Source: Nitrospira sp.
Lineage (GTDB): Bacteria; Nitrospirota; Nitrospiria; Nitrospirales; Nitrospiraceae
Assembly (NCBI GenBank): GCA_023248215.1
Contig: JAHFEW010000017.1
Location: 1-60,200 of the forward strand
Length of the DNA stretch: 60,200 nucleotides
Direction: 5' to 3'
Both the position numbers and the translations under genes were made by a program. This document shows positions 28,995 through 37,780 of the stretch, one piece after another. How positions within the stretch are numbered: the stretch's first letter is position 1; every line of letters starts with the position of its first letter. The notes below the pieces were generated by a model. It made no database searches. It saw only the letters and a list, made by a program, of their open reading frames with translations, and had not been told where the DNA came from.

Positions 28995-30863
28995 TCAGGG
29001 ATGTTCGGCTGCGGGGATGGCAGGTGGTTTGGTGAGAATCATGTCCAGATTCCTATCCGAGGTGCGCTGCACCGGCAGTACTTGCGGTTGTTGCTCTTGC
29101 TTGAAATCGCTCCGAGCCACCATCGGTACCTTGCGATTGACATAGGCTGTCACCTCGCCGATCGTCACCTCACCGTTACGGTTGAGGTCTGCTTCACCGC
29201 GAAGCCCGCGCAGGAGATAATAGGTGAACAGCCCGTGCCGCAACGTGTCTGATTCCAAGCTCTTCCCGAAGCCCGTGGTGGCGATGACGTGAAGGACTGA
29301 TCCATTTGCCCCTGCCCATTTGGGTGACGGTACCTTCATTCGTCCCTCTGCTCCGTTTTTCAGAACGGTGCCATCGAACACGAATAGGACTTGTTTGGCT
29401 TTGAGCCTTGCCAAGGCTGTCTCCAAGTCTTTGAGCGGATAGAGGCGTGAGGTCGCTTCCAAGGAACCGTCATACGGGATCAGAAAGGTTTCCCCGGCCG
29501 GTGAGACGATGGCCTGTCCGGCGAAGTAGACCATGACGACCGAGTCCTTCGTGATTTTAGATGGCAGCCAATCGAGCAACGCTTCCTCAATGTCCGGGCG
29601 TAAGGCGCTCCAGTCCTGCAATAATCGGACGTTGCTCCGGGGCAATCCACCCAGCGACTGGAAATAGGTGGCGACCATTTCGGCGTCGAGGGCCGCGTAT
29701 TTCCGTGCGGCAATCTGCTGTTCCCGATAGCTGCTGAGCCCGATTGAGAGCAGGTAGTCGCCTGATCGTTGAAACCCAGCGGTCACAGCGGGAATCTGAT
29801 CGACGTCGTCGGTTCTCAATCCGGTTGGTAGTACGGAGGCGAGCAGCGTTTGCGGAGGAGGGACGCCTTGACCGGTTCCGCTCGCTAAGGACACTTGAAA
29901 TTCCGCCTGTTGCGGGTGCAGCGATTGCGGCAGGGTGGCAATGAACTCGAGGGATTTGGAGCCGCCTGCCTCAATGGTGCCGGCGGACAATTTCGTGGCC
30001 GGAAATTGGGTGATCAGAGTCGGCGGGCCGGCCAGCTGAACGGCAATGTCTGGCACCGCCTGGGGGCTCGTGTTGACGACGTCAACCCGCACGCGGATCC
30101 GTTCGCCGCCTTCGAGAATCAGGTTGCTGTTTTCATCCAAAAGCGTGGCCTTGAAGGATAGGGCGTAAACCGGTGCGGCCGGAGCCGCAGGGGTAAGACC
30201 TGCCGATTGCGAGGCAGCTCCGGCAGTGGCGACGGACGATGGCGAAGCCGACGCATTCGCATTATGGGTGGGGTCGAGGAGCACTCGCGCCTCTTGCATG
30301 AACTGTGTCGCCAGCATGGCCGAGGTGTCCTGCACAAAGGGATCAATGACGTAGTCACATCGTTGCTGGGTCAGCTCGAGTTGTAACCGTTCTTTTCGCG
30401 TGGCTTGCAACGGGCGCTCGGCCAGCAACTTGCCCGATGTATCGAAGAATTCGGCGAAGGCGTCTAAACTGAGTTCGGCTGGGGCGCGATCATAGAGAGC
30501 GTCGGCTTGAATTTTCAGACGAGGATCCAACATGCGCACCCGTACGGTGACGTCCGGCTTTGCTTCAGTCGCATGGCCCCCCTGAATCAGCACGGAACGA
30601 AAGGTTTGGTGGGCGGCTTGGATCAGCATGTCTTCAACTGTCTGGCCGATCGAGAGCGGTTGGATCCGGTTGCAACCGTCGATGTACTGGGTCTGGGCCT
30701 GGGACAACGACGGGTCAAGGTCCATTTGAACAGTGAGAGGAACGGGGGGGCCGAGGTCCGGCAGTGCCTGGCGGGAAAAGCGCGACTTGATGCTTTCGCA
30801 GGCGGTGGAGGCCAGCACCTGTATGAGAAGAACTCCAATGATGAGTATGCGATTCGTCTTCAA
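28995..30863 (-). CDS. caspase-fold lipoprotein with EF-hand, probably catalytically dead
   Basis: A 622-residue protein from a TTG start at 30863, preceded by AGGAGG at a 7-nt spacing; the ATG at 30959 would put 32 odd residues before the signal. Lipobox STAC near residue 21. Residues about 50-330 are beta-rich and include VPDIAVQLAGPPTLITQFP. About 369-560 is a peptidase C14 domain (DYLLSIGLSSYREQQIAARK, VVMVYFAGQAI, QVLFVFDGTV). Caspases have H in YxAGHG and C in DxCxSG; here these are Q450 and T499. A clean EF-hand DLNRNGEVTIGE lies at 559-570. It is probably a structural, calcium-responsive pseudoenzyme in the envelope. Confidence 0.85.
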   Translation of the reverse strand: MKTNRILIIGVLLIQVLASTACESIKSRFSRQALPDLGPPVPLTVQMDLDPSLSQAQTQYIDGCNRIQPLSIGQTVEDMLIQAAHQTFRSVLIQGGHATEAKPDVTVRVRMLDPRLKIQADALYDRAPAELSLDAFAEFFDTSGKLLAERPLQATRKERLQLELTQQRCDYVIDPFVQDTSAMLATQFMQEARVLLDPTHNANASASPSSVATAGAASQSAGLTPAAPAAPVYALSFKATLLDENSNLILEGGERIRVRVDVVNTSPQAVPDIAVQLAGPPTLITQFPATKLSAGTIEAGGSKSLEFIATLPQSLHPQQAEFQVSLASGTGQGVPPPQTLLASVLPTGLRTDDVDQIPAVTAGFQRSGDYLLSIGLSSYREQQIAARKYAALDAEMVATYFQSLGGLPRSNVRLLQDWSALRPDIEEALLDWLPSKITKDSVVMVYFAGQAIVSPAGETFLIPYDGSLEATSRLYPLKDLETALARLKAKQVLFVFDGTVLKNGAEGRMKVPSPKWAGANGSVLHVIATTGFGKSLESDTLRHGLFTYYLLRGLRGEADLNRNGEVTIGEVTAYVNRKVPMVARSDFKQEQQPQVLPVQRTSDRNLDMILTKPPAIPAAEHP

Positions 30864-30946
30864 GCAGAGGCCTCCTCTTCGGCATGTGGCGAAGGGGGAA
30901 CGGTACAGGAAAGGAGGGGGCATTGCAACCGAGCGCCTTGCGCGGC

Positions 30947-31026: not shown

Positions 31027-32760
31027 GTGTTGGTGCTGGGGATCTCCAATATGCGGGATGCGGCGGCAGCGATCGTCTCTGACGGCCGAATCGTTGCGGC
31101 GGCTGAAGAAGAGCGATTCGTTCGGCAGAAGCATGTGACCGCGCTGCCGGTCCACGCGATTCGTTATTGCTTGCGCGAGGCCGGTGTGACCCTTCTGGAT
31201 GTCGAGGCCATTGCCGTGCCGTGGAAGTATTGGCTGGTCGGGAGGCGCGCCTGGCTCGCCTTGACGGCGATGGTGCGGTCCCCGCAATTATTTCGAGTGA
31301 AGGGGACGCGGTCGTTGGAGCGAGTCAGCCGCGAGTGGAAGGAATTGTTCTGGCTTCGGCGGGAATTGACGCAACGGGTTGATTCGGTCGGCCATCGCCC
31401 GGTTTTTCTCGATCACCATTTGTGCCATGCCGCCAGCTCGTTCCTGGTTTCGCCCTTCGAGCGGTCGGCCATCCTTGTCGTCGACGGCGCCTCGGAAGCG
31501 GATACCACGCTGATGGCGATGGGCGAAGGCGCGCAGATCAGCGTGCTCGATCGTACTCCGCTCCCGCATTCGCTCGGACAGTTCTATGCGGCGATGACGG
31601 CGTATCTGGGGTTTCGCCCGGACCAGGATGAATATATCGTGATGGGGTTGGCGGCTTCCGGCGAACCGACCTTTGCCGTAGCCTTGCGCCGAGAGATTGT
31701 GCGGCTGCTCCCCCACGGGCGGTTCGAGTTGAATACCCGCCTCCTGGATTTTCATCTCGCCAGAGCCGGACTGTTTGTGCAGGAATTCGTTCGCCTGTTC
31801 GGTCCTCCAAGGCATTCGACGGATGAGCTCACGCAGCGACATCGTGATCTGGCGGCCAGCGCTCAATTGCTCCTGGAGGAGGTGTTGTTGCATCTCGGTC
31901 GTCATCTGCGATCCCTGACGCAGGCGGAGTCGCTCTGTCTGGCGGGCGGTGTAGCCTACAATTGCGTGGCGAACGGCCGCCTGCGTGCCGAGCTCGGTTT
32001 CAAACAGGTGTATGTGCCGCCGGCTGCGGGTGATTCGGGCGCGGCGCTCGGTGCGGCCTTGTGGTGGACGGCCAGGCGTGGAGGGTTCACCGTGAGACGG
32101 CAGCTGCCTTCCGCCTATTTGGGGCCTCAGTTCGACGAGGATGCTTGTCGAGTGGCGCTGGCGCGGATGGGCTTGGTGGCCGAGCCCCTGACGGATGCGC
32201 AGCTGAACGAGCGGGTCGCCACGGAACTGGCGCGCGGACGTTTGGTGTTTTGGTATCAAGGACGGATGGAATGGGGGCCGCGCGCCTTAGGGAACCGCAG
32301 TCTTCTGGCGGATCCTCGACGGGAAGACATGCGGGAATTGATCAATAGCAAAGTGAAATGTCGAGAGCCCTTTCGACCCTTCGCGCCTTCGGTACTCGAC
32401 GAGCGAGCCCAGGAGTTCTTCGACCTACCGGCGGCGTCGCCCTTTATGCAGTTTACGGTGCAGGTGAAAGCTTCCGCCAAAGGGAGCATCCCGGCCGTGA
32501 CGCATGTCGACGGGACCGCACGCGTGCAGACCGTGACGCGTGAGGCCAATCCTCGATTCTATGATCTCCTGGCGACCTTCGGACGCCTCACCGGCGTCCC
32601 GGTTCTTCTCAACACCTCCTTCAATGTACAGGAACCGATTGTCTGCAGCCCCGACGACGCGGTGCGATGTTTTCTGCGGACCCAAGTCGAGTGGTTGGTT
32701 CTTGGCAATCTGCTGGTGGGACGATCATCTCAACGGACTGTCCCGACCCATGAATACTGA
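31027..32760 (+). CDS. NodU/CmcH-type carbamoyltransferase
   Basis: A 577-residue protein with the two domains of the NodU/TobZ family: a Kae1-like N-terminal part (LGISNMRDAAAAIVSDG, AAAEEERFVRQKH, DHHLCHAASSFLVSPF, LAGGVAYNC) and the C-terminal carbamoyltransferase domain (GRMEWGPRALGNRSLLADP, REPFRPFAPSVLDER, NTSFNVQEPIV). Members transfer carbamoyl from carbamoyl phosphate, through carbamoyl-AMP, to hydroxyl groups of natural products or sugars. The GTG start follows GGGAG. It overlaps the next membrane protein by 11 bp. Confidence 0.93.
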   Translation: MLVLGISNMRDAAAAIVSDGRIVAAAEEERFVRQKHVTALPVHAIRYCLREAGVTLLDVEAIAVPWKYWLVGRRAWLALTAMVRSPQLFRVKGTRSLERVSREWKELFWLRRELTQRVDSVGHRPVFLDHHLCHAASSFLVSPFERSAILVVDGASEADTTLMAMGEGAQISVLDRTPLPHSLGQFYAAMTAYLGFRPDQDEYIVMGLAASGEPTFAVALRREIVRLLPHGRFELNTRLLDFHLARAGLFVQEFVRLFGPPRHSTDELTQRHRDLAASAQLLLEEVLLHLGRHLRSLTQAESLCLAGGVAYNCVANGRLRAELGFKQVYVPPAAGDSGAALGAALWWTARRGGFTVRRQLPSAYLGPQFDEDACRVALARMGLVAEPLTDAQLNERVATELARGRLVFWYQGRMEWGPRALGNRSLLADPRREDMRELINSKVKCREPFRPFAPSVLDERAQEFFDLPAASPFMQFTVQVKASAKGSIPAVTHVDGTARVQTVTREANPRFYDLLATFGRLTGVPVLLNTSFNVQEPIVCSPDDAVRCFLRTQVEWLVLGNLLVGRSSQRTVPTHEY

Positions 32761-34294
32761 GTCTGTCTGGTTCTCAGTCCGCCGCTCTCAGCAGATCATA
32801 GGTGTCCTTCTCGATATCCTCCTGCTCGGCTTCGTACTAAACCTGACCCTCCAACCGCTCGTGGAACCGGATTTGGGCTGGCACCTTCGTGCGGGGCTGG
32901 ACTTGATCGCCCACGGATGGATCCTGCCGGACACCGACCCCTATTCCCATACGATGCCGGACTGGCGATGGGTCGAGCACGCCTGGTTGACCGATGGTCT
33001 GCTGGCGCTACTCGATCGCGGACTGGGACCTTTCGGCGGGTTGGGGCTGATTATCTTCTTTGGGGCCGTGACGTCTCTGGCCTGGTGGATTGCGGCAGGA
33101 CAGGCCCCGGTGCCACGGACCTACCGATTGGCGGCCATGGTGGCGAGCCTGTGGGTGGCGTTACCCTTTCTCGGAGCTCGTACTCAACTGGTGAGTCTTC
33201 TCGGCGTGGCGGTCCTGTTGTGGGTGTGGAGCCATATTCAGCAAGGCCGTCGTCAATGGATCTGGGTGCTTGCTCCCCTCTTCCTGCTATGGGCTAATCT
33301 GCATGGAGGGTTCACGGCGGGACTCTTTCTGTTGGGTGTGATGGTACTCGGGGCTCTTCTGGTGAGGATCTGCATAGATCGATGGCCCACCCTTGCCGTG
33401 TCGTTGGATGAGCCGGTCCTGAATTGGGAAGACCTTTGTCGTTGTATTTTCGTGCTTGGGATCGCCGCGGCGGTGACCTGTCTCAATCCCTATGGATGGC
33501 GACTCTATGTCGAGATCTATGAGTCCCTGACGGATCGGTTCATGATCGAGACCTTGCGGGAATGGCAGCCGGTGTCCTTTCAGGGCTGGGCCGGCAAGGC
33601 CTATGGTCTCTATCTCGCCGGTCTCGCCGGTCTCGTGGCTGGATGGTATCGACGGGTGGAACCGGTTCGTTGGGCCATGCTCGCGATCGTGCTGCTGTTG
33701 TCGCTCCTGCACTGGCGCAACGTCGCGCTCTTTCTCATCGTCAGTCTGCCGTTGGTTGCGGAATTGCTCGCCTTGGCGATGGCGTCGTGCCTCCGATGGG
33801 CTCCGGCTCTGAGGACCTATGCCGGTACGAGCCTTCTCGCGCCGACCGTTGTGGCGGCAAGCGTCCTCTATGCGTTGGGGATCGAGCATGTGGTGCATGT
33901 GTGGCGATCAGGAAGCGCGCCTGGTGTCTATTTCGAACAGACCGACTATCCGATCGAGGCCGTGCGGTGGATCCACAACCATCGCGAAGAAGTGGGAACC
34001 AGGCTCTACAATGACTATGGCTACGGTGGGTTTCTCCTCTGGCAGCTCCCCGGAGAGAAAATTTTCATCGACGGCCGCATGCCGGCCTGGCGGATCGGGG
34101 ATCGGCGCATCTTTCAGGATTACGTGGACCTGAATCGCGAGGACTCGCCGGCCTTGGTAGTGTTGGATCAATACGGGGTCGATTGGGGCTTGATTCAACG
34201 CGGGACCGCGCTGGCCCTGGCCCTGGAAACACATCCCGCTTGGAAGACCATCTATGTCGATGCCAAGGTGGTGATCCTGCGCCGGCAGTCGTGA
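32750..34294 (+). CDS. large polytopic membrane protein
   Basis: A 514-residue protein with about ten membrane helices. An N-terminal periplasmic-loop motif (EPDLGWHLRAGLDLIAHG, ILPDTDPYSHTMPDWRW, WVEHAWLTDG) and the C-terminal soluble part (DYGYGGFLLWQLPGEKIFID, GRMPAWR) are typical of a GT39-like glycan transferase-related family of unknown reaction. It starts at ATG 32750, inside the end of the carbamoyltransferase gene, so translation is coupled. Together with the GT2 gene downstream it suggests modification of an envelope glycan, but this is inference. Confidence 0.8.
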   Translation: MNTESVWFSVRRSQQIIGVLLDILLLGFVLNLTLQPLVEPDLGWHLRAGLDLIAHGWILPDTDPYSHTMPDWRWVEHAWLTDGLLALLDRGLGPFGGLGLIIFFGAVTSLAWWIAAGQAPVPRTYRLAAMVASLWVALPFLGARTQLVSLLGVAVLLWVWSHIQQGRRQWIWVLAPLFLLWANLHGGFTAGLFLLGVMVLGALLVRICIDRWPTLAVSLDEPVLNWEDLCRCIFVLGIAAAVTCLNPYGWRLYVEIYESLTDRFMIETLREWQPVSFQGWAGKAYGLYLAGLAGLVAGWYRRVEPVRWAMLAIVLLLSLLHWRNVALFLIVSLPLVAELLALAMASCLRWAPALRTYAGTSLLAPTVVAASVLYALGIEHVVHVWRSGSAPGVYFEQTDYPIEAVRWIHNHREEVGTRLYNDYGYGGFLLWQLPGEKIFIDGRMPAWRIGDRRIFQDYVDLNREDSPALVVLDQYGVDWGLIQRGTALALALETHPAWKTIYVDAKVVILRRQS

Positions 34295-34313
34295 GCGGAA
34301 AGGCGCCTGTCTG

Positions 34314-35129
34314 CTAAAAATGAGAAGGTTCGATGGAGGTTAAGGCCGGCTCAACTGTGCTGGGTGCCGGTCGGGAGCGGGGCATGTATCGCCCCTGGGC
34401 TTCGCGCTTGCGGATGGCCATCAGTTCGCGAAGCATGACGAATCCGTCGCGCCAGGGACGGACTTTCGACCCCGGCTGATCGGTCCAATTGACCGGGACT
34501 TCAGCGATGCGATAGCCGCGTTGCCGGGCGATGTAGAGGAGCTCAAGATCGAACGCGTAGCCGTCGACGCACGTGACCGAAAACAAGTCCTGCGCCACAG
34601 ACCGACGGAACAACTTGAACCCGCATTGGGTGTCCGCAATGTGTCGAACCCCCAGGCGCTGCACGATGGCGTTGAAGATGGTTCCCAGAACACTCCGGTG
34701 CCACCGCGCCTGGACAGTATAGTTGGGATCTTGAGCGGCCAGCGCCCGTGATCCGATGGCGAGATCCGCCCCGGTCGAGAGTGCAGACTCCAAACGACCG
34801 AGTTCTTCAATCGGCGTCGCCCCATCTGCGTCCGCAAACAATTGCAGGGACCCTCGCGCGGCTTGCATGCCGCGGCGGACCGCCGCTCCTTTGCCCATGT
34901 TGCAGGTCAATTGAATGAGCCGCACATGGGGCGACTGCTGCGCCAGCAGTTCGACGGCCTGTGCCGTGTGGTCTTGACTGCCATCGTCCACGACGAGGAT
35001 TTCATACGTCGAGTGACGCTCTTCCAGGTAGGTCACCATACGCTGCAAGGAGGGGGGGAGGCGGCGAGCCTCATTGTACGCTGGAACGATGATCGAAAGA
35101 GAGGGCGTCTGAGTCGAGCACGGTGTCAC
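34314..35129 (-). CDS. GT2 glycosyltransferase, dolichol/undecaprenyl-phosphate type
   Basis: A 271-residue family 2 glycosyltransferase. N-terminal motif LSIIVPAYNEARRLP, VVDDGSQDHT for nucleotide binding, the DxD in LFADADGATPIEEL, and the family block ADTQCGFKLFRR plus GYAFDLELLYIARQRGY, characteristic of Alg5/dolichyl-phosphate glucosyltransferase-like enzymes. It likely makes a polyprenyl-phosphate sugar at the membrane. It is convergent with the membrane protein gene, 19 bp away. Confidence 0.92.
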   Translation of the reverse strand: MTPCSTQTPSLSIIVPAYNEARRLPPSLQRMVTYLEERHSTYEILVVDDGSQDHTAQAVELLAQQSPHVRLIQLTCNMGKGAAVRRGMQAARGSLQLFADADGATPIEELGRLESALSTGADLAIGSRALAAQDPNYTVQARWHRSVLGTIFNAIVQRLGVRHIADTQCGFKLFRRSVAQDLFSVTCVDGYAFDLELLYIARQRGYRIAEVPVNWTDQPGSKVRPWRDGFVMLRELMAIRKREAQGRYMPRSRPAPSTVEPALTSIEPSHF

Positions 35130-35323
35130 GTTGGGACAGCCTCCGGTCGGCGTGTGCTGTGACCGATCCGTCTTGCTGCTGACGAATGGTACACAACGGT
35201 ATCTGAGCGGCGATCGAATTGCAAGCAGGAGGTGTCGGGCCTTGACAGAATCGGCACGTGGGGGCGATCGTATTAGGAGACACCTTCGGAGTCCGGGCTG
35301 TGCTTTTCAGAAGGAGGGTTGTC

Positions 35324-36091
35324 ATGGGGCGGAACCGAAAATGGTCAGTGCTTCTCGTCGGTCTGCTGTTGATGGGATGTGCGGCGACGTCTCCTCCCAG
35401 CCGATTGAGTCAGTATGTACCATCTGCACAGTCGGGTGATTCGATAGGCCAAGGGCTTCCAGTCCCGCGTCCGGTTCGAGCCGCATTGGTTGTCCTAGGT
35501 GACAGGTCGGCTCCCGAGGCTGCGCCGGGACTTCCTGAGCAGGCGCAAGATCGACTGGCTGAGACGCTTCGCGAGCGAATCAACCAAGGGTTTCCCCTTC
35601 GCATCGAGCGTGTGGTGAATCTGGGCGAAGTTCCGGCAGGGACGACTCCGGACTGGACCGAGGTCGCCAGGCAGCAGGGGGTGGAATATCTTGTGGTCGT
35701 CGTCCTGTCGAGTACGGAGCAGGAATATCCAGTGTCGTTGTTTCTGGGGTGGACGACCCACCGGCAGCCGGGGTTCCGTCGCGATAACTGGTCGCTGGTC
35801 GAGGCGGCGCTGGTCGACGGACGGACGGGCAATCTTCTCCTCCATGCTGAGGGACGAGCCATGGCGACATTAGACAGTCCTACGGCTCCTGGGATCAATC
35901 AATGGTATCCGGTGATTTATCTGCGGCCGCAAGACCCGGAACGGCGCATCTGGCCACCAACCTATGAAGGAGCGCCTCTCACCCTCCGTGTCGTGTCGAT
36001 GGAGCAGGCAGCCAAGCGACTGGCCGGGAATCTGCAGCGCGCTTGGGTCGACCAGCGGGATCTCGAATTGGCCGCAATGACCACGCCCTAA
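35324..36091 (+). CDS. lipoprotein of unknown function
   Basis: A 255-residue protein; lipobox LLMGC near residue 19 (VLLVGLLLMGCAATSP). The mature part has an alpha/beta pattern (RPVRAALVVLGDRS, LAETLRERINQGFPLRIERV, GVEYLVVVVLSSTEQEYPVS) with no recognised domain, perhaps related to proteins annotated as uncharacterised Nitrospira lipoproteins. AAGGAGG precedes the ATG at 35324, so 22 residues of an upstream in-frame reading are excluded. Confidence 0.75.
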   Translation: MGRNRKWSVLLVGLLLMGCAATSPPSRLSQYVPSAQSGDSIGQGLPVPRPVRAALVVLGDRSAPEAAPGLPEQAQDRLAETLRERINQGFPLRIERVVNLGEVPAGTTPDWTEVARQQGVEYLVVVVLSSTEQEYPVSLFLGWTTHRQPGFRRDNWSLVEAALVDGRTGNLLLHAEGRAMATLDSPTAPGINQWYPVIYLRPQDPERRIWPPTYEGAPLTLRVVSMEQAAKRLAGNLQRAWVDQRDLELAAMTTP

Positions 36092-36162: not shown

Positions 36163-36192
36163 TTGAAGGCGATTGTACGAATAGTGTAGAAT
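36163..36192 (+). promoter_or_regulatory. sigma-70-like promoter for the HtrA gene
   Basis: TTGAAG (36163-36168), 18-nt spacer, TAGAAT (36187-36192). It gives a leader of about 55 nt. Confidence 0.5.
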
Positions 36193-36253
36193 GTTATGTT
36201 CGTCGTCTACGAGGAGTCAGTTCCCTCATTTTCAGGCTTCCGAAGGAGTACAC

Positions 36254-37780
36254 ATGGTGTATCGACATCAGCGGAGTAAGGTGCTGTCCGTACTCGCAGT
36301 AATCACAATGGTTGCTGCCATGTTCTTAGTCGGTGGATTCCAGACCGACTATCAGGCTGAGGCGGCAGGTGTGCCCCCGGCGTTTGCTCAGGGGTTTTCG
36401 GAGATCGTCAAGGCGGTCACTCCTGCGGTCGTCAACATTGCGGTGACCGGTGGAGGAGAGAGCCGCCGCGAAGGCCGCCGCCAGATTCCTCCGGGCCCAT
36501 TTGGTGGACCACCGCCAGGTGAGGAGCCACCCGGCATGGAACCTCCGGGACCTCCCGGCGCACCGCCGGGCCCTCCTGGCGGAGGCCCGCATCGTCCAGA
36601 CCAGAGTGCCGGATCGGGTGTGATCCTCGATCCGAACGGATACATCGTGACCAATAACCATGTGGTCGAAGGTGCCACTCAAATCACGGTGACTCTGTCG
36701 GACCGCCGTGAATTCCCGGCGAAGATCGTCGGAACGGATCCCAAGACGGATTTGGCGATTATCAAGATTGAAACGAAAGATCTCCCTTCCATGAAGTGGG
36801 CGGATTACGACGAGTTACAGGTCGGCGACGTGGTCTTGGCGGTGGGCAGCCCATTCGGGCTCAGTTCAACCGTTACCCTGGGCATCATCAGCGCCTTGGG
36901 ACGAGGGAATGTGGGCATTGCCGATTATGAAGACTTTATCCAAACCGATGCCGCCATCAATCCCGGCAATTCAGGCGGCGCCTTGGTCAATATGCAGGGC
37001 AAACTGATCGGCATCAACACGGCCATCTTCTCCCGAACCGGCGGGTCCGAAGGGATCGGCTTCGCCATCCCGAGCAGCATCGCGACGGACATCGTCGAGA
37101 GCTTGACCAAGACCGGCAAAGTGGTGCGGGGCTGGATGGGCGTGGCGATTCAGGAAATTACCCCGGCCCTGGCCAAATCCTTCAAGCTGCCCGAGCAGCG
37201 TAAAGGAGTGCTGATTAGCGACGTGAATGAGAATGGTCCCTCTCATACAGCGGGGATGCGGCGCGGGGATGTGGTTGTCGCCTTCAACGGCAAAGAAGTC
37301 CAGAGCGTCAGCCAGTTGCGGAATCTGGTGGCTCGCACAACGGTCGGGAAGGACGCCGACATCAAGATTGTGCGCGAGGGGAAAGAGCAGATCTTGAAGG
37401 TCAAGGTGGCTGAACGGCCGTCGGACGAAGTGCTCGCTAAGCGCGAGCCCGGTCCCGCCAGCGCCCCAACTGAGACGGTGAAGCCGCCTGACAATGTCCT
37501 GGCTTCCTTGCGCGTGCAGATGCTCGATGCGGCGATGCAGAGTCAGCTGAATATCCCGACCAAGACCAGTGGCGTGGTTGTCAGTTCCGTGGAGGCGGGC
37601 AGCGCCGCAGAGTCTGCGGGGCTGCAGCGCGGCGACGTGATCCAGGAGGTCAACCACGAGGTGATCAAGAGCCTGGAGGACTATCAGAAGGCGTCCGCCA
37701 AGGTGAAAAAAGACGAAATGGTGGTGCTCTTGCTCAGCCGGCAAGGGAACAATTTGTTTGTCGCCGTCAACCCGAAGTAA
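36254..37780 (+). CDS. HtrA/DegP-family serine protease with Pro-Gly-rich insert
   Basis: A 508-residue periplasmic protease. Signal peptide is at about 8-38. The trypsin-like domain carries the triad H136 (TNNHVV), D166 (KTDLAI) and S240 (GNSGGAL); two PDZ domains follow (about 288-380 and 425-500, the second containing GVVVSSVEAGSAAESAGLQ). Between the mature N-terminus and the protease domain is an unusual stretch at about 79-115 made almost only of P, G, E and A (PPGPPGAPPGPPGG). AAGGAG precedes the ATG at 36254. Quality control of envelope proteins is the usual role. Confidence 0.95.
   Translation: MVYRHQRSKVLSVLAVITMVAAMFLVGGFQTDYQAEAAGVPPAFAQGFSEIVKAVTPAVVNIAVTGGGESRREGRRQIPPGPFGGPPPGEEPPGMEPPGPPGAPPGPPGGGPHRPDQSAGSGVILDPNGYIVTNNHVVEGATQITVTLSDRREFPAKIVGTDPKTDLAIIKIETKDLPSMKWADYDELQVGDVVLAVGSPFGLSSTVTLGIISALGRGNVGIADYEDFIQTDAAINPGNSGGALVNMQGKLIGINTAIFSRTGGSEGIGFAIPSSIATDIVESLTKTGKVVRGWMGVAIQEITPALAKSFKLPEQRKGVLISDVNENGPSHTAGMRRGDVVVAFNGKEVQSVSQLRNLVARTTVGKDADIKIVREGKEQILKVKVAERPSDEVLAKREPGPASAPTETVKPPDNVLASLRVQMLDAAMQSQLNIPTKTSGVVVSSVEAGSAAESAGLQRGDVIQEVNHEVIKSLEDYQKASAKVKKDEMVVLLLSRQGNNLFVAVNPK

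Follow-up and report, generated by a model that had tools for sequence, protein, structure and literature searches.

Orthocaspases with substituted catalytic residues are a known kind of bacterial protein. The pseudo-orthocaspases described by Klemencic et al. (2019; PMC6426788), 90% of which are alphaproteobacterial or cyanobacterial, combine a p20-type fold with replacement of the catalytic His and Cys, commonly by Y/S or Y/N, and retained acidic pocket Asp residues, and they are presumed to be inactive; Nitrospir* is absent from the main text of that paper. In a 2012 survey (Asplund-Samuelsson et al., PMC3501461), Cys-His conservation was only 57% in Nitrospirae, and the survey section concerned names no family for these proteins and describes neither their architecture nor a partner gene.

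The protein studied here is encoded on a 60,200-nucleotide stretch of Nitrospira sp. DNA that was analyzed as a whole (GenBank assembly GCA_023248215.1, contig JAHFEW010000017.1; the window). It shares with the described pseudo-orthocaspases the p20 homology, the substituted dyad residues, and the pocket Asp residues; as regards an active C14 peptidase or orthocaspase, it has the caspase fold and lacks the catalytic His-Cys dyad. It differs from the known kind in the substitutions (Q or L with T, I, M, or S), a caspase domain free of Cys, an architecture that joins a lipoprotein anchor and LptE/CsgG-like and CARDB-like domains to a caspase domain with an invariant EF-hand, family-wide conservation, and a linked putative partner gene. 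We did not find this family or its architecture described in the open-access literature, where no paper was found that unites caspase, Nitrospira, and EF-hand; literature beyond open access may hold one.

LptE, CsgG, PelC, and DUF330 are envelope lipoproteins that share the fold of the N-terminal domain but have no caspase domain. Among animal proteins, c-FLIP(L) is a pseudocaspase and MALT1 joins caspase and Ig domains; both are cytoplasmic signaling proteins, and their likeness to the window protein lies in fold only (17 to 18% identity).

Occurrence and domain architecture

In a whole-genome search, orthologues turned up in each of the 28 further genus genomes examined (68 to 87% identity), one of them broken by contig ends and one with an internal stop; in-frame stops occur in two listed copies (G005:C64 and G010:C806). 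The uncommon TTG start is common to the genus orthologues (L004-L030). Most genera of the same family also hold an orthologue (40 to 61% identity) besides a second dead paralogue, and a scan of named public genomes yielded 77 pseudocaspase loci, all labeled Nitrospira, Nitrospirae, Nitrospiraceae, or Nitrospirota with the exception of one MAG labeled Nitrosospira.

Table 1. Features of the pseudocaspase gene and of the linked lipoprotein gene in the window
Feature	Position	Strand	Basis or remark
Pseudocaspase lipoprotein gene	28995..30863	-	622 aa, TTG start at 30863, TGA stop
Shine-Dalgarno-like AGGAGG	30871..30876	-	7 nt upstream of TTG start; read directly from sequence
Signal peptide and lipobox ending at C22 (LASTAC)	30798..30863	-	C22 invariant; model helix 3-29
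N-terminal domain, aa 33-200, LptE/CsgG/PelC/DUF330-like fold	30264..30767	-	AF2 model and VIA Z
Low-complexity Ala/Pro/Ser linker, aa 201-232	30168..30263	-	pLDDT <40; dN/dS 0.44
CARDB-like Ig beta-sandwich, aa 235-346	29826..30161	-	Profile matches in orthologues; model beta strands
Caspase-fold domain, aa 364-613, Cys-free	29025..29774	-	Pfam PF00656, VIA Z, and Cys counts
D393 codon, aligned with acidic specificity-pocket Asp (TbMC2 Asp95 position, by motif)	29685..29687	-	D in 48/48; role by analogy (PMC6426788)
Q450 codon, catalytic His position	29514..29516	-	Alignment with relatives
D497 codon, two residues before Cys position (TbMC2 Asp211 position, by motif)	29373..29375	-	D in 48/48; role by analogy (PMC6426788)
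T499 codon, catalytic Cys position	29367..29369	-	Alignment with relatives
EF-hand loop DLNRNGEVTIGE, aa 559-570	29154..29189	-	D559 and E570 invariant; helix-loop-helix in model
Putative partner lipoprotein, 277 aa as listed	35258..36091	+	Likelier start ATG 35324, lipobox LMGC

The full-length AlphaFold2 model (pLDDT 82) consists of an N-terminal domain, a disordered linker, a beta-sandwich, and the caspase domain, and its pTM of only 0.49 means that the relative arrangement of these domains is not fixed by the model. The initial annotation had proposed a secreted, membrane-anchored protein, and the prediction agrees: a signal helix leads to a lipobox whose Cys is present in 48/48 and 74/74 aligned rows, and many orthologues carry a more canonical [AST]GC lipobox, so that the protein is probably anchored. 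The N-terminal domain holds exactly two Cys residues (C64 and C169) in 48/48 orthologues, an invariant pair that would fit an oxidizing periplasm.

Neither the N-terminal domain, the Ig domain, nor the linked lipoprotein gene had been part of that annotation. Modeled alone, the N-terminal domain reached a pLDDT of 91.5 and a pTM of 0.87, with VIA Z scores of 12.4 to 2iqi, 11.3 to CsgG, 10.7 to PelC, and 10.3 to LptE; fold matches, which include XCC0632/DUF330 and related lipoproteins, had Z scores of 9 to 12 over 119 to 160 residues. No Pfam match to the LptE, CsgG, or PelC sequence families was found for this domain. Of the 48 orthologues, 25 had a match of the beta-sandwich to CARDB (best E 4e-4) and 20 to NPCBM_assoc (best E 2e-4), counting matches with E up to 0.5; the window protein itself gave a match to neither.

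Pfam Peptidase_C14 was assigned to residues 374 to 596 of the window protein (E=1.3e-8; 35.3 bits versus a cut-off of 21.4), and no other Pfam family was reported for its C-terminal region; an NCBIfam search with the pseudocaspase returned nothing. Compared with known structures, the modeled caspase domain had VIA Z scores of 21.4 to metacaspase-4, 21.2 to MALT1, and 20.3 to GSU0716 of Geobacter, and of 19 to 21 overall, caspases included. Sequence searches of the PDB with the window protein, its profile, and an intact relative produced no caspase match, and the matches of the family profile fall solely on the EF-hand loop (EhCaBP; E 0.19, weak).

The lost dyad and selection on the dead domain

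The initial annotation read Q450 in place of the catalytic His and T499 in place of the catalytic Cys, and alignment bears this out. Of the 76 rows scored in the locus alignment, 75 are orthologues and the odd one, from L130, is a separate caspase whose dyad is intact. Cys occupies the catalytic Cys position in 0/75 orthologue rows and His the His position in 3/75, and the non-orthologous L130 caspase is the only row with both residues. At EF-hand positions 1 and 12, all rows have D and E. Homologues that keep His and Cys had been named as the sign of a sequencing error or a shifted alignment; the orthologues do not keep them, and both explanations are thereby excluded. The label of pseudocaspase also stands, given that there is no catalytic Cys anywhere in the domain; in 47/48 aligned orthologues, the caspase domain has no Cys at all. 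The DSCFSG motif of the intact relatives has become DGxV throughout the pseudocaspase family.

The Q/T pair, whose conservation among Nitrospira homologues had been in question, is typical within the genus alone. In other orthologues the His position holds Q, L, V, M, T, or H, and across orthologues the Cys position holds I, M, S, A, G, K, L, V, or N besides T, with Thr or Ser in about a third of rows. Because both positions vary outside the genus, the Q/T pair as such does not constitute a new, conserved active site.

We built a tree of 90 rows with the dyad columns excluded and without inferring a root. All 24 intact-dyad rows fall on one side of a single branch (support 100/99), and one change suffices to explain the Cys state; His is scattered on the tree, and the label "His without Cys" requires six changes. 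To judge from these sequences, the catalytic Cys looks to have been lost once. That the change was a loss and not a gain of the dyad follows from the general antiquity of the dyad, the tree being unrooted.

Codon analysis within the genus gave median dN/dS values of 0.107 for the caspase domain, 0.075 for the EF-hand region, 0.118 for the N-terminal domain, and 0.126 for the Ig domain; the disordered linker had the highest median of the protein (0.442). Purifying selection thus acts on every domain and is strong on the dead caspase domain (dN/dS about 0.11). Given these low values across the dead domain compared with the linker, the pseudocaspase is a working protein and is not decaying.

Other Nitrospirota hold secreted intact-dyad caspases, several of them with the same Ig domain. 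Two of these (L171:2188-4014 and L170:16054-18405) join Ig and caspase domains like the window protein, to which the L171 protein is 39% identical over about 390 residues covering both domains; they differ in that AGHG and DSCFSG are intact and in having no match to the pseudocaspase N-terminal domain. An orthocaspase in L084 (G021:C6) resembles the pseudocaspase in its N-terminal domain (profile 4-126), its caspase domain, and an EF-hand-like loop but has an intact dyad and no Ig match. Tandem clusters of several intact-dyad orthocaspases occur in other Nitrospirota (L170 [G199:C8:40000-59500], L171, and L173).

The genome of the window encodes two further dead caspases. A second lipoprotein of the same architecture (L071; G000:C15:42998-44860) has GRA and DLS at the dyad positions and a conserved EF-hand-type loop. 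A third secreted pseudocaspase (L002; G000:C148:23695-24375), with TPR-like repeats after the domain, keeps His (AGHA) and has Asn for Cys (DAN); similar-sized matches are found in most genus genomes.

A linked lipoprotein gene

In relatives at the order level, a homologue of the putative partner lipoprotein gene lies divergently adjacent to the pseudocaspase in 15/15 genomes that have both listed genes on one contig, with intergenic gaps of 154 to 677 bp; in two further order-level genomes, the two genes are on different contigs. Ten such loci were read at 13.6 to 16 kb, and the partner was the only other window gene that was always shared (10/10), compared with one locus each for an HtrA homologue and an Mrp-like homologue. 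Within the window's own family, the two genes have the same divergent orientation at 52 loci, at a center-to-center distance of about 5.7 kb; genes for a carbamoyltransferase, a membrane protein, and a glycosyltransferase intervene. The lipobox Cys of the partner is conserved, and no Pfam or NCBIfam family was found for this lipoprotein. A profile-profile comparison of the partner with the pseudocaspase N-terminal domain indicated no relation (probability 0.2%), and around the second paralogue and family f2, no partner-type neighbor was seen within the 2 kb inspected. Conserved gene order suggests that the two proteins may act together but falls short of proving contact.

Several other features of these neighborhoods were recorded. 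In the window, the genes that separate the pair (31027-35129) encode a NodU-like carbamoyltransferase, a large membrane protein, and a glycosyltransferase, an arrangement that is not found in the sister family. Up to three tandem copies of the partner stand beside the pseudocaspase in some relatives (L215, L212, and L208). Directly downstream of the partner, an HtrA/DegP-type protease with PDZ-like repeats is encoded at 36191-37780 (+), and in L207 a homologue of this protease is about 5 kb away from the partner.

We rejected the wider neighborhood (miaA, mtaP, pfkB, TPR, rodZ, cytochrome c, and carbamoyltransferase) as functional evidence, since its conservation covers the window's own family and does not extend to the order's other family; we took it for ordinary synteny. 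A role in polysaccharide export, at which the adjacent glycan-type genes and the PelC-like fold of the N-terminal domain hint, was left unsupported.

Proposed role and competing explanations

We propose, with a probability of roughly 0.6, that the pseudocaspase is a non-catalytic binding protein (a pseudoenzyme) or scaffold of the Nitrospira envelope that is stabilized by calcium and acts with the lipoprotein encoded at 35258-36091. The mature protein would be periplasmic and sit on a membrane through its predicted lipid anchor. Ca2+ at the EF-hand would pin the two C-terminal helices of the caspase fold together and keep the fold in shape, and the old substrate cleft, with D393 and D497 retained, would hold a peptide or protein without cutting it. 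By analogy with cyanobacterial pseudo-orthocaspases, for which the holding of basic peptides has been proposed (PMC6426788), a cleft with an acidic pocket may still hold such peptides, but the two Asp residues may instead persist for folding. Joint action with the partner lipoprotein, suggested by the conserved divergent gene pair, might serve envelope assembly or surveillance.

A rather doubtful alternative is that the protein is a calcium sensor, whose EF-hand would take up and release Ca2+ within the physiological range and shift the pseudocaspase back and forth between two binding states. The initial annotation had described the EF-hand as a textbook example, and so it is: DLNRNGEVTIGE fits the canonical 12-residue pattern (D1, D/N3, D/N5, G6, I/L/V8, and E12), and in the AlphaFold2 model helices 545-557 and 568-586, the last two of the caspase domain, flank the loop. 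Pfam EF-hand_1 was found in 7/48 orthologues (best E 0.033) and not in the window protein. In favor of a sensor are this loop, with Glu at position 12 and D or N at positions 1, 3, and 5, the low dN/dS of the region, and the constancy of D1 and E12, which all 124 rows of the dead families share (88 orthologues and 36 others). The loop does not, however, make the protein unusual, as had been suggested. A matching loop stands at the equivalent place in about two-thirds to three-quarters of 24 intact-dyad relatives (D1 in 67% and E12 in 75%), and EF-hands are known in some archaeal orthocaspases (PMC6426788); on this comparison, the EF-hand is inherited within the caspase lineage and not peculiar to the pseudocaspase. 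An ancestral loop may be structural, and there is a single EF-hand, with no second one in the model. Loss of the loop has occurred in several active relatives, whereas D1 and E12 are kept throughout the dead families. The contrast is an argument for the metal site being important to the dead protein and is compatible with a structural as well as a sensing role. Periplasmic Ca2+ tracks external Ca2+. With the compartment open to external calcium, a structural site is at least as likely as a sensing one.

Another explanation, which we consider unlikely, is that the protein forms a pair with a catalytically active caspase homologue whose activation it controls, in the manner of c-FLIP. Animal pseudocaspases regulate the activation of active caspases, and the fold matches the caspase-8 chain of the caspase-8:c-FLIP complex (3h11_B; Z 20.1). 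Secreted intact-dyad caspases are present in some family genomes, and one is found about 1 kb downstream in L130. Such enzymes are patchy, however, whereas the pseudocaspase family is universal. The only intact-dyad caspase found in the 199 contigs of the window's own genome (G000:C38) has no signal peptide, which makes this role less likely. When that genome is compared with an intact Ig-caspase, it is the dead protein that matches most closely.

That the protein retains or has gained hydrolase activity, through another nucleophile (T499 or a nearby Ser or Thr) or a relocated dyad, is very improbable. The frequency of Thr or Ser at the Cys position would allow it, but we rejected it because that position also holds I, M, A, G, K, L, and N and the His position Q, L, V, and M, the domain is Cys-free, and DSCFSG is lost throughout. 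The chance that we are dealing with a degenerating gene, a sequencing error, or a misalignment is negligible, for the lost dyad and the in-frame stops in two copies are outweighed by an orthologue in every other genus genome examined and a dN/dS of about 0.1, which refute it.

Beyond the binding role that we favor for the pseudocaspase, we tentatively suggest, at less than even odds, that the order Nitrospirales possesses a two-lipoprotein envelope system in which a caspase fold that lost its catalysis a single time in evolution would be a calcium-clamped adaptor paired with the unclassified 35258-36091 lipoprotein. If so, a caspase fold would have a role in the bacterial envelope that is purely structural or that of an adaptor. 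Outside photosynthetic bacteria, pseudo-orthocaspases have been tallied, but little work has been done on them. The present family is conserved across a group of major nitrite oxidizers, and its catalysis was apparently lost a single time. Its intact-dyad relatives, invariant calcium-type site, and candidate partner make the role of a non-cutting caspase fold directly testable in bacteria.
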